The translations under genes and the position numbers were made by a program. Shown piece by piece: positions 28,520-32,364 of a stretch of DNA of 64,000 bases. The notes under the pieces were generated by a model that saw only the letters and a program-made list of their open reading frames with translations, did not search any database and was not told the origin of the DNA. Positions within the stretch are counted from its first letter, which is position 1. Each line of letters begins with the position of its first letter. The stretch is from Leptolyngbya sp. NIES-3755 (GTDB taxonomy: Bacteria; Cyanobacteriota; Cyanobacteriia; Leptolyngbyales; Leptolyngbyaceae), in contig AP017308.1 in NCBI GenBank assembly GCA_001548435.1, forward strand, positions 1,125,030 through 1,189,029, read 5' to 3'.

Positions 28520-29539
28520 TCAGTTAGTTGGAAGTGGCTGACCGAATTGGATGGTTCTCGATCGTGCTGGAACTGGAGTATTGTCGATCGGTTGTGCAGT
28601 CGTGCGAGGGGCTTGCGGAATCGATCGCGGTTCTTGGGGAATCGATCGCGGTTCAGTCGGTCTTGCTTCTGGAGAAGAGCGATCGAGCGGTGGAACCGAT
28701 ACGGTTGGCTGAGCCGTTGGCGCATTGATCGGCGGAAACGAATTCGGAATTGCAAGACTCGGATTCACATCAGGCAATTGCAGCGGATTCGATGTATTCG
28801 TGGGTCGAACTGCATCAGGAAACAATAAGCTACTACCGGGAGAATTGCCTGAGCCAGCCGCAGGTAAGGGCGCATTCTGGAGGGGTGGCATTACGGATGG
28901 AGCGGTCGGCAAAGGACGAGATTCGGTCGGGGCGGGAACGGTTACGGGTGTGGAGGGAGTCACATCGATCGCGGGTGGCGCAGGCGGTAAACCAAAGTCA
29001 CTCGCAGAAGTCGGAGTTTGCGCGACGGTTGGAGTTTGAGGCGTTGAAGTTTGAGGCGCGGTTTGAATTGGACGAAGCTGATTGAATACCGCTTGAGTCG
29101 TGGGAGAAGGTGCACTGGCAGCAAGAACCGGGCGGAGTGTCCAACGATCGACAGTCTGATCGGTATCCTGAACTTGCTGAAGTTGCGCTTGCTGATTGTC
29201 TAAAACGACATTTGGAGCTAATTCCACTACAATTCTCGCGACATTCGGCTGAAATTGGGACACTCGAATTTCTCGCACTGCGCCTGAAAACGTGCCTCTA
29301 GGTGCGACCGCTCCAACTTGTGTCTCTGGCAAATCGAGAACAATGCGGGTCGGTTGTGCCAAAAGCGAATAGCGAGGTTTGACTCCTGCGGGAACGGTGA
29401 CTTCGAGTTGATTGGTGTTGGGGTCAAAGCGCCAGTTTTCTAGCGGGGCAGCGGTGGCAGGAGCAGCAAGGAAGAGCGCGAACACTACGTGCAGCGGAGC
29501 TACCGCAAGAGTCAATTCGAGTTTGTGTGAGTTCAGCAT
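28520..29539 (-). CDS. AMIN-domain exported protein with proline-rich tail
   Basis: A 339-residue protein with a signal peptide (cleavage after about residue 30, ATAA). An AMIN domain covers about 33-130 (WRFDPNTNQLEVTVPAGVKP…VLDLP…VREIRVSQFQPNVARIVVEL). The rest is low-complexity Pro/Thr/Ser sequence with repeated RSIPQ units. AMIN domains bind peptidoglycan and target amidases or pilus secretins to the cell wall. No amidase domain follows, so it is probably a periplasmic wall-binding protein. The start has an upstream gap of 107 nt to the chemoreceptor gene. Confidence 0.8.
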   Translation of the reverse strand: MLNSHKLELTLAVAPLHVVFALFLAAPATAAPLENWRFDPNTNQLEVTVPAGVKPRYSLLAQPTRIVLDLPETQVGAVAPRGTFSGAVREIRVSQFQPNVARIVVELAPNVVLDNQQAQLQQVQDTDQTVDRWTLRPVLAASAPSPTTQAVFNQLRPIQTAPQTSTPQTPTVAQTPTSASDFGLPPAPPAIDVTPSTPVTVPAPTESRPLPTAPSVMPPLQNAPLPAAGSGNSPGSSLLFPDAVRPTNTSNPLQLPDVNPSLAIPNSFPPINAPTAQPTVSVPPLDRSSPEARPTEPRSIPQEPRSIPQAPRTTAQPIDNTPVPARSRTIQFGQPLPTN

Positions 29540-29646: not shown

Positions 29647-32364
29647 CTACGCAGACACTTTGAAAGTTTCAACGGATTCTGCCAGAGCTTTTGCGATCGT
29701 CACCGTTTCTCTAAGTGAACTAGAGACCTCAAGCGATGAACTAGAGGTATGTTCCGCAACTTCAGCGATCGTATTCATTAAATGAGTCACGGTGTTTGAG
29801 GTGCTGACTTGTGAAACGGTTGCTTCAGAAATCGAATGGACAATTTGATCGATCTGATGCGACACCTGCAAAATCTGTTCTAAGCTTTGTTTTGCAGATT
29901 CTACAGACTGAGTGCCTGTCACGACTTGAACTGTACTTTTCTCCATTGCTTCTACGACTTCGATTGTTTCTTGCTGAATGGTGCTCACGAGTTGAGAAAT
30001 TTCATGAGTTGCCGCAGAAGCCCGACTTGCTAATGCACTCACTTCCTCTGCAATCATTGCAAATCCTTGGTGTCCATCGGTTCGAGTGGCTTCGATTCCA
30101 GCATTGATCGCTAACACATTGGTTTGCATTTCAATTTGATTGATCAGTAACACTGCTTTTGAGATTTGTTGAGCCGATTCACCTAATCGTTTTACTTTTT
30201 TCGTCGCTTCACTAATCGACTGACGGAGTTCGGCAATGCTCTCAGCCGTTTCACTCATCGCAAATTCACCCGCTTCCGCAGTTAAAGCTGCTGTTTGACT
30301 GACTTTTGCGGCTTGTTGGGCGTAATTGGCGATCGTATCAATCGAGCGCACCATCTGAGCAATACAATTCAGCGTCAGATGCGTTTCTTCGGCTTGTTTG
30401 AGCGCATCTTGTGACAGCGATCGGACTGAGGTTTCATGCTGATTTAGAGAAGAATTGACTTCCAGAACACTCTGTTTCACTTGCTGGACGACTTGCTGTA
30501 AGTTTTCAACGATCGCATTAAAGAAATCAGCAACGGTTCCAATATCTTCACCACTGACAACAGCCCGAACAGTTAAATCACCACTGGCAGCCTTTTCAGC
30601 TTGTTTCATCAGTTCTTGAAGCTGCAATCGCAGGACTTCTTTTTGCTGTTGGCGTTCTTGAGCAAGCGTCGCCTGAGCAAGAGCCGTTTGACGTTCATTT
30701 GTGAGATTAAATTGGGCGATCGCATCTCCTAGATGTAATGCGATTTGCACCAGTAGGCTCGTTTCCGACTCTTCCCATTGACGCGGAGCACTACATTGAT
30801 GAGCTACTAACAATCCGAGCAACTGTCCCTCAACAACCATTGGAGCGACTAGATTCGCTTTAATGTTAAATGCTTCTAATTGTTCGCGGTAACACGGATC
30901 GATTCTGGCATCTTCTAGGTTACAAATCGCATGAGTTCGACCTGTTCGATACTTCTCGATATACCGTTCCGCAAAACAAGGATCAGCAATTCTCGCACCG
31001 AGCGCCGCAGGAAACCCGATCGCGACTGATTCTGCCACGATCGTCCCTTGCCAGTTCTCGTCAAAGAGATACACAATGGCACGATCGACATTCAGCAGAT
31101 GCCGAACTTCTCGAACTCCGGTTTGAATGATCTCATCAAAGTTAATCGATCGACGAATACTATACGCAGCTTGATTCAGTTGTTGAAGCTGTTGAACTGA
31201 TTTAGCCTGATCCTGCATTGATTTAGCGATCGTATCTGCCATTTGATCAATCACTTTGCTAAATGCTGCAATTTCATCATTACCAGTAATGTTTAGACGA
31301 GTGGTGAGATCGCCGTCTGAAAGCTTTTTAACGCGCTCGGTCATCATCGTGAATCTGCGAGTTAAGAGATGAGCCAGCAAGATTGCTAACAGTCCAGACG
31401 CGACCGCAGCCCCAGAACCGAACAATAAAATCCAAAGACGCGAAGGTTGTGAGATGCGCTCAGCGGGAGTACTTAGCAGAATTCGCCAGTTTAGATCAGG
31501 TAATTGATCTATTTTTGCGATCGGGGTTTGAGTGAGGAATAAGCGCTGTTGAGTTTGTGCATCTGTCCAAAACTTACTATCGGGTAGAGTCGCATCGGCG
31601 AAAGCGGTGAGTGCAGTACGACTCTGTTCTGATGCAACAACAAGACGATTTGCATTATCAAGAATGCTGTAGCTATTTTGAACACTAGGAAGTAGGTTTG
31701 CTAAGTTACGAGTCGGTAAGGTCGATCGGAGAATCGCGATCGTTCTTCCGGTAGCAATCTCCCGAATTGGAGCAGTGAAGTAGAGCACAGATTGATCTTC
31801 AGTTTCGATCACATCGCTGAGCGTAACGCGATCGCTTTTAAGTGCAGATTGGAAATAGTACTGTTTTGATTGATTGGGGGTGGATTGCGACTTCGTTTGA
31901 AGCAATAAATTTCCGTTCGGATCGAAGATTGCAATGTTACTATATGCAGCGTAGGATTGTGTTGCTCGATCGAGTGCTGCAAACTTGTCTTCTTGAGATA
32001 GACTATTCCAAATTCGAGCATCATTTAATAAAGGTAATGCTGCGATCGCGCTAATTTCGGTTTGTCTTTGTTGCATGTAGCTTTCGATCGAATCACCCGC
32101 CATTTTTGCAAGGGTTTGCTGAGTTTCCATTGCCTGTGTGACCGAGCGATCGTTCAATTTATAGCTCACGGCTCCCACAGTCAGCGATGGAATGACGCTG
32201 AGTAAAAGTGCGATCGCGCTCACTTGATTCTTAAAGCTCAGTGTTTTGAAGCGGGATAAAAGGCGACTGTGAAAAGGCGAAATGCGGCGAGGTAGAGAAT
32301 GATTAACTTCAGCTAAAAGAGAATCTGGGGGAATCCGACGCTGAGCGGATTGAATCTTCATCAC
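29647..32364 (-). CDS. methyl-accepting chemoreceptor with cyanobacteriochrome-like GAF
   Basis: A 905-residue receptor: TM1 (about 47-67), a periplasmic dCache-like region (70-305), TM2 (about 310-334), HAMP (335-385), GAF (405-550), a second HAMP-like segment (580-630) and an MCP signalling domain (640-885). The GAF contains D461-P-C463-F464 and C491-Y492, 28 residues apart. The DXCF motif and this spacing match the two bilin-linked cysteines of TePixJ-type blue/green cyanobacteriochromes; the usual Cys-His is Cys-Tyr here. It may be a phototaxis receptor. No CheA/CheW-like genes are adjacent. Start could be either of the first two Met codons. Confidence 0.85.
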   Translation of the reverse strand: MMKIQSAQRRIPPDSLLAEVNHSLPRRISPFHSRLLSRFKTLSFKNQVSAIALLLSVIPSLTVGAVSYKLNDRSVTQAMETQQTLAKMAGDSIESYMQQRQTEISAIAALPLLNDARIWNSLSQEDKFAALDRATQSYAAYSNIAIFDPNGNLLLQTKSQSTPNQSKQYYFQSALKSDRVTLSDVIETEDQSVLYFTAPIREIATGRTIAILRSTLPTRNLANLLPSVQNSYSILDNANRLVVASEQSRTALTAFADATLPDSKFWTDAQTQQRLFLTQTPIAKIDQLPDLNWRILLSTPAERISQPSRLWILLFGSGAAVASGLLAILLAHLLTRRFTMMTERVKKLSDGDLTTRLNITGNDEIAAFSKVIDQMADTIAKSMQDQAKSVQQLQQLNQAAYSIRRSINFDEIIQTGVREVRHLLNVDRAIVYLFDENWQGTIVAESVAIGFPAALGARIADPCFAERYIEKYRTGRTHAICNLEDARIDPCYREQLEAFNIKANLVAPMVVEGQLLGLLVAHQCSAPRQWEESETSLLVQIALHLGDAIAQFNLTNERQTALAQATLAQERQQQKEVLRLQLQELMKQAEKAASGDLTVRAVVSGEDIGTVADFFNAIVENLQQVVQQVKQSVLEVNSSLNQHETSVRSLSQDALKQAEETHLTLNCIAQMVRSIDTIANYAQQAAKVSQTAALTAEAGEFAMSETAESIAELRQSISEATKKVKRLGESAQQISKAVLLINQIEMQTNVLAINAGIEATRTDGHQGFAMIAEEVSALASRASAATHEISQLVSTIQQETIEVVEAMEKSTVQVVTGTQSVESAKQSLEQILQVSHQIDQIVHSISEATVSQVSTSNTVTHLMNTIAEVAEHTSSSSLEVSSSLRETVTIAKALAESVETFKVSA

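Follow-up and report, generated by a model that had tools for sequence, protein, structure and literature searches.

The gene on the minus strand at 29647–32364 of the 64-kb stretch of DNA analysed here (the window) most probably encodes a PixJ paralogue that stands as an orphan: a chemoreceptor of the membrane with a GAF domain in the cytoplasm that is, to judge from its sequence, a DXCF cyanobacteriochrome with a blue/green switch. The open reading frame and Pfam matches give a product of 905 aa with the order dCache-HAMP-GAF-HAMP-MCP. The families matched at E values up to 0.1 are dCache_1, HAMP, GAF and MCPsignal; the PHY domain of phytochromes was not found in the receptor at this threshold, and the GAF stands alone. 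A first transmembrane helix (approximately residues 44–66, 32167–32235) is followed by the periplasmic dCache_1 domain (Pfam residues 74–247, 31624–32145, E = 3e-15), whose predicted fold reaches approximately residue 305, and by a second helix (approximately residues 308–333, 31366–31443); both helices were recognized by eye as hydrophobic stretches and appear as helices in the domain model. HAMP is matched in two stretches, best at residues 329–379 (31228–31380, E = 3.6e-11), the GAF domain occupies residues 409–549 (30718–31140, Pfam E = 4.8e-22) and the MCP signalling domain residues 695–869 (29758–30282, E = 9.4e-29), all on the minus strand. Residues are counted from a GTG codon; the second codon is ATG, and all numbers fall by one if translation starts there. 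The full-length AlphaFold model (9 sequences) was poor (mean pLDDT 48.3) and was set aside. The gene immediately downstream, likewise on the minus strand, encodes an AMIN-domain protein (28520–29539).

The sequence-only reading had recognized the cysteine pair of a DXCF cyanobacteriochrome, and this was confirmed by alignment with TePixJ. The motif D461-P-C463-F464 (30973–30984, minus strand) and the pair C491-Y492 (30889–30894, minus strand) place the two cysteines 28 residues apart, the spacing of TePixJ C494 and C522, with which C463 and C491 respectively align; both codons are TGT (30978–30976 and 30894–30892) and both lie within 30860–31020. C491 is the canonical cysteine and the expected ligand of bilin C3(1), C463 the second cysteine and expected ligand of C10, and a Tyr follows C491, as had been stated, in place of His. 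In a phmmer search against solved structures, the top four distinct sequences were all the TePixJ GAF (E = 2.7e-36 for 3vv4 to 5.4e-35 for the group with 6pru), and residues 407–542 aligned to the TePixJ crystal sequence gaplessly with 65 of 136 positions identical, which argues against a chance motif. The residues described around the bilin of TePixJ (entry 6PRU) are C494, C522, H498, W499, H523, D492, Q526 and N535 (PMC6955287). The alignment shows D492, C494, R507, C522, Q526 and N535 kept in the window GAF, while H498 is replaced by R467, W499 by Y468 and H523 by Y492. In TePixJ, H498 and W499 hold the B-ring propionate of the bilin, and the three replacements count against the preferred explanation.

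Close copies of the receptor (E up to 1e-50) were found in seven of the eight genomes of the genus, nine in all, five of the eight being drafts of 40 to 1060 contigs, in which absences weigh less. All nine have D-P-C-F and C-Y, with both cysteines and Y492 invariant. They form two groups: group A consists of the window gene and copies in G258, G170 and G115, and group B of a paralogue in the window's own genome and copies in G197, G282, G115 and G265. For a wider comparison, GAF sequences were taken from loci chosen by likeness to the window GAF or dCache, the class searches covering 388 genomes drawn evenly from a larger group and the loci being gathered among the matches listed. Removal of rows that had over 35 gaps or were wholly included in another left 238 distinct GAFs, to which sample the following counts apply. 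DXCF is present in 147, and every one of these has the canonical cysteine too. A further observation is that 35 of the 238 have a Cys at the DXCF position (mostly D-x-C-I in the rows inspected) and lack the canonical cysteine; many receptors with several GAFs, such as L094, L100 and L108, have a domain of this kind as their first GAF.

A maximum-likelihood tree was built from 143 GAFs after thinning at 80% identity (quick search, with SH-aLRT as the only support measure). Groups A and B fall together (support 100) inside a 34-row DXCF clade with an SH-aLRT of 96, and TePixJ is placed in a neighbouring DXCF clade. The phylogeny that had been proposed as a check thus puts the window GAF among DXCF cyanobacteriochromes, and homology, conservation of the two cysteines and tree all bear out the earlier assignment of such a domain within a chemoreceptor. 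When the two motif regions were removed (133 rows; 10 further rows, mostly long-branch, were left out), the genus clade still had a support of 100 and the five nearest rows listed were still DXCF; the larger DXCF clade was then without strong support.

It is highly improbable that the GAF domain has ceased to bind bilin and that input comes from the dCache domain only. There is precedent for such a change in the single-GAF dCache-GAF-MCP receptors L071, L073, L074, L077 and L086, related proteins from one cyanobacterial family in which both bilin cysteines are lost. However, the window receptor keeps both cysteines, as do all its genus copies, together with several pocket residues, and in all 147 DXCF GAFs of the sample the canonical cysteine accompanies that of the motif. 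Whether the two cysteines tend to be lost together was tested on two independent pairs, with no significant result. Two relatives of the cysteine-less receptors, from Plectonema (L125) and Hassallia (L128), keep DPCF and CY.

The suggestion that Tyr492 might shift the photocycle was not borne out. The residue after the canonical cysteine is His in 89 and Tyr in 58 of the 147 DXCF GAFs, and the two have interchanged at least 15 times on the tree built without the motif regions (75 DXCF rows). Tyr is also found in Tlr0924: a CBS-PAS-GAF-GGDEF protein in genome G030 has GTG as its fifth codon; numbering from this codon makes its DXCF cysteine residue 499, in agreement with the Tlr0924 numbering of PMC4067208, and its canonical cysteine is followed by Tyr. 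Tlr0924 is characterized there as a blue/green DXCF receptor with incomplete conversion of phycocyanobilin to phycoviolobilin (PMC4067208). Cys-Tyr was accordingly rejected as an unusual feature. Because Tlr0924 has it and His and Tyr change places so often, Tyr492 is a common variant, from which alone a new photocycle is not predicted; a lesser influence, such as one on the phycoviolobilin yield, is possible.

A variant of the preferred explanation, which overlaps it, is that the domain binds bilin and responds to other colours (blue/teal, or with mixed phycocyanobilin and phycoviolobilin as in Tlr0924) through Tyr492, Arg467 and Tyr468. The incomplete conversion in a Cys-Tyr protein is in keeping with this, as is L155, a GAF-GGDEF-EAL protein with DSCF and Cys-Tyr in the window's genome; L155 is probably SesB, the activity of which is described as increased by teal light (PMC5871770). 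However, two proteins cannot tie the colour to the Tyr, Tlr0924 is itself described as blue/green, and the His/Tyr position is labile. We regard this variant as possible, if somewhat doubtful.

Typical DXCF domains are described as carrying phycoviolobilin and as blue-absorbing in the dark and green-absorbing when lit, with the DXCF cysteine bonded to C10 (PMC11284453). Following that pattern, phycocyanobilin from the cell would attach to C491 and be isomerized at least partly to phycoviolobilin; the genome has one match to the ferredoxin-bilin reductase family PF05996 (E = 4.6e-79). In the dark, a bond between C463 and C10 of the bilin would make the domain absorb blue; under blue light the D ring would flip and the C463–C10 bond would break, leaving a green-absorbing state, and green light would reverse the change. 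From the comparisons above, the window gene product very probably senses blue/green light in this way, via a bilin held by the two cysteines.

A periplasmic Cache-like domain had also been proposed, as a feature unlike PixJ. The domain is genuine, both by its Pfam match and by its fold; the contrast with PixJ is not. A 941-codon frame in genome G030 encodes a GAF that equals the TePixJ crystal sequence at 136 of 136 positions. If residues are numbered from the second codon of the frame, a GTG, the cysteines take their published numbers, 494 and 522 (491 and 519 if counted from an ATG three codons later). This TePixJ product has Pfam dCache_1 at 87–320 (E = 1.2e-14), HAMP, one GAF and MCP, so that the Cache domain is no difference from PixJ, and its novelty relative to PixJ was rejected on reading the TePixJ gene itself. 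The Cache domain is thus part of TePixJ, which corrects a likely misreading, and this well-studied blue/green receptor may also be built for a periplasmic signal.

With a dCache profile made for this analysis, receptors combining dCache and DXCF were also found in named cyanobacteria, among them Plectonema radiosum (L125), Hassallia byssoidea (L128), Moorena (L105) and Symplocastrum (L117); L128 scores 246 bits with this profile and has no Pfam dCache_1 match. Ten multi-GAF relatives have N-termini unmatched by the profile, and in Pfam these gave two dCache_1 matches below the cut-off, two dCache_3 matches (one over the cut-off), one weak PDC match and HAMP only in five. In view of these ten N-termini and of L128, a dCache domain is not claimed for all PixJ-like receptors. 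In the open literature, with most subscription papers outside it, no paper was found that contains both 'PixJ' and 'Cache' as whole words, a query that does not catch 'TePixJ' or 'PixJ1'; one paper, a review on c-di-GMP, combines cyanobacteriochrome, 'Cache domain' and 'methyl-accepting chemotaxis'.

The AlphaFold model of the dCache domain (48 sequences) has a mean pLDDT of 84.7, and its Foldseek matches include Tlp3 and PctA. It superposes on PctA with a VIA-align Z of 18.3 (rmsd 2.9, 225 residues), and the sequence profile matches PctA with E = 3.9e-12. The published amino-acid motif was found in none of 48 aligned dCache domains (the window's and 47 relatives), and amino-acid sensing by the window domain, tried through this motif, was set aside. 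Lying upstream of the first HAMP, the domain could add a second, chemical input to the signalling hairpin on which the light signal would act.

The window gene is an orphan. Its genome has 10 MCPsignal and 20 CheW-domain matches; the nearest CheW-domain match lies 80.7 kb from the window MCP, compared with 0.8–3.4 kb for the other nine MCPs. A profile from 11 of the genome's own CheW proteins had no match in the 64-kb window, in the 3.6-kb contig of G282 or in 18 kb surrounding each group A gene of G258, G170 and G115, and it matched a single CheW in every one of five control stretches with the operon. Comparison with three CheAs of the genome likewise found none in these stretches outside the window, and one in each control operon. 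The group B paralogue of the window's genome, by comparison, belongs to a row of genes for a PATAN response regulator, a second response regulator, CheW, MCP and CheA, arranged as in the TePixJ operon of G030; the same gene set is reviewed as the tax1/pix cluster (PMC5812497). Since the gene is not encoded together with two response regulators, CheW and CheA, as PixJ (pixGHIJL) is, it is filed as a PixJ paralogue and not as PixJ.

The CheA of the group B operon is present at 78–100% identity in the five group B genomes (G000, the window's own, G115, G265, G197 and G282, in the last as a contig-end fragment), whereas the best match in G258, G170 and G244 is only 61–62% identical. G258 and G170 thus have the orphan and no detected copy of this CheA, which makes the orphan seemingly independent of the group B operon. 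The orphan probably feeds another CheA. A CheA of cluster C type (61–62% identical to the query, 963–968 codons) is found in all eight genus genomes.

Several observations concern the surroundings of the gene and the other che clusters. Two AAA_35 genes lie upstream of the receptor; they remain adjacent in G115 and, in G282, lie next to a fragment at a contig end, and were not found beside the group A gene in G258 or G170. Between 32540 and 42134 of the window, the AAA_35 pair and genes for a response regulator-PAS protein, a CHASE2 histidine kinase, a DUF928 protein and a CHAT-TPR protein adjoin the receptor, and these neighbours are syntenic in G115, save the CHAT gene, since the stretch read ends before it. 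A second che cluster (G000:C1:1065378-1074536) includes the dCache-GAF-MCP receptor L009, which has the canonical Cys (CHCEIL) and lacks the DXCF cysteine; CheA of this cluster type is found in all eight genus genomes. Another che cluster (G000:C1:5664750-5668911; L003-L005, L010, L196) has a PixJ-like receptor that is seemingly split: a 980-aa frame has dCache and three GAFs (D-P-F type, with canonical Cys) and no MCP domain, and a neighbouring 470-aa frame holds the MCP domain, with a TGA inside the GAF match.

The own-genome paralogue of group B (G000:C1:1927411-1928835; L002/L211) is 51% identical to the window protein. It has the same architecture with DPCF and CY, and its GAF is 60% identical; it differs in belonging to a pixGHIJL-type operon, in a signalling-tip loop of the usual length and in its dCache, which is only 37% identical. 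The orphan and operon copies thus offer a natural comparison within one genome, related light sensors having different tips and settings. In five of the six group A pairs, MCP is the best conserved of five regions (80–91% identity); in the sixth (L031-L032), MCP is 92% and GAF 96% identical. Among the group A pairs, the three distant ones have an omega of 0.046–0.060 in MCP and 0.096–0.147 in GAF, and no value in the dCache region, where dS is saturated. In MCP omega spans 0.046–0.156 over four group A pairs (0.156 being the close pair L031-L032) against 0.012–0.029 in four group B pairs. On these values the group A receptor is under purifying selection, with a constraint that is clear yet weaker than in the operon copy.

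The loop at the tip of the MCP hairpin (30067–30081, minus strand) lacks one residue relative to the remaining receptors of the comparison: it has five residues in all four distinct group A tips and six in the 24 other distinct tips among the 28 caught by the search pattern, which caught 5 of the 10 MCPs of the window's genome, so that clade specificity holds for the tips caught. With that scope, the orphan position and the shortened tip together mark the group A clade. The shorter tip could mean poor or changed control of the kinase. A working but specialized contact with CheA/CheW is the likeliest reading, and its main rival is a modulating, non-switching receptor: the GAF would bind bilin and photoconvert, and the orphan alone would switch no kinase but act as a modulator or decoy in the arrays of other receptors. 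Besides the shorter tip, the weaker constraint on MCP and the lack of a CheW nearby, this rival can draw on the MCPsignal score of the window receptor, at 100.4 bits the lowest of the ten in the genome, and on Phormidium lacuna, the PixJ of which is described as lowering photophobotactic sensitivity and as a negative regulator of photophobotaxis (PMC13383048). However, a shorter loop need not abolish signalling, and the conservation of MCP above the other regions suggests an active contact surface. We consider the rival improbable.

With a working contact, the light signal would reach the MCP hairpin via the coiled coil and the second HAMP and so change a CheA/CheW complex, which probably has type IV pili under its control. 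The genome has six CheR matches and five secretion-ATPase matches over the cut-off; the latter family had matches in all 14 control genomes as well, so that it is weak evidence for pili. The direction of any motility output is not predictable, given the effect described for the PixJ of Phormidium lacuna. We further speculate, as a scenario that we think rather unlikely, that PixJ-type receptors are two-input by origin and that in this clade one copy left the pix operon, had its tip shortened by one residue and now feeds light and chemical input jointly into another chemosensory array or tunes that array without direct kinase switching.

Among known systems, Synechocystis PixJ1 (TaxD1) is described as a membrane MCP with a blue/green cyanobacteriochrome, the colours predicted for the window receptor, its gene being clustered with those for two response regulators, CheW and CheA (PMC5812497). 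Its two GAFs and its place in a cluster set it apart from the window receptor. Tlr0924 (SesA) shares DPCF and Cys-Tyr with the window GAF, but its CBS-PAS-GAF-GGDEF architecture is not that of a chemoreceptor. The PctA-type dCache chemoreceptors for amino acids share the fold of the periplasmic domain and differ by their amino-acid motif. Another close counterpart is TePixJ, in which, apart from the equal cysteine spacing and the 65 shared GAF residues, dCache_1, HAMP, one DXCF GAF, HAMP and MCP follow in the same order. The TePixJ gene, in contrast, lies in an operon with two response regulators, CheW and CheA, and its GAF has Cys-His where the window GAF has Cys-Tyr. The window receptor is thus of a known kind, distinguished by its orphan position and its shortened tip loop.
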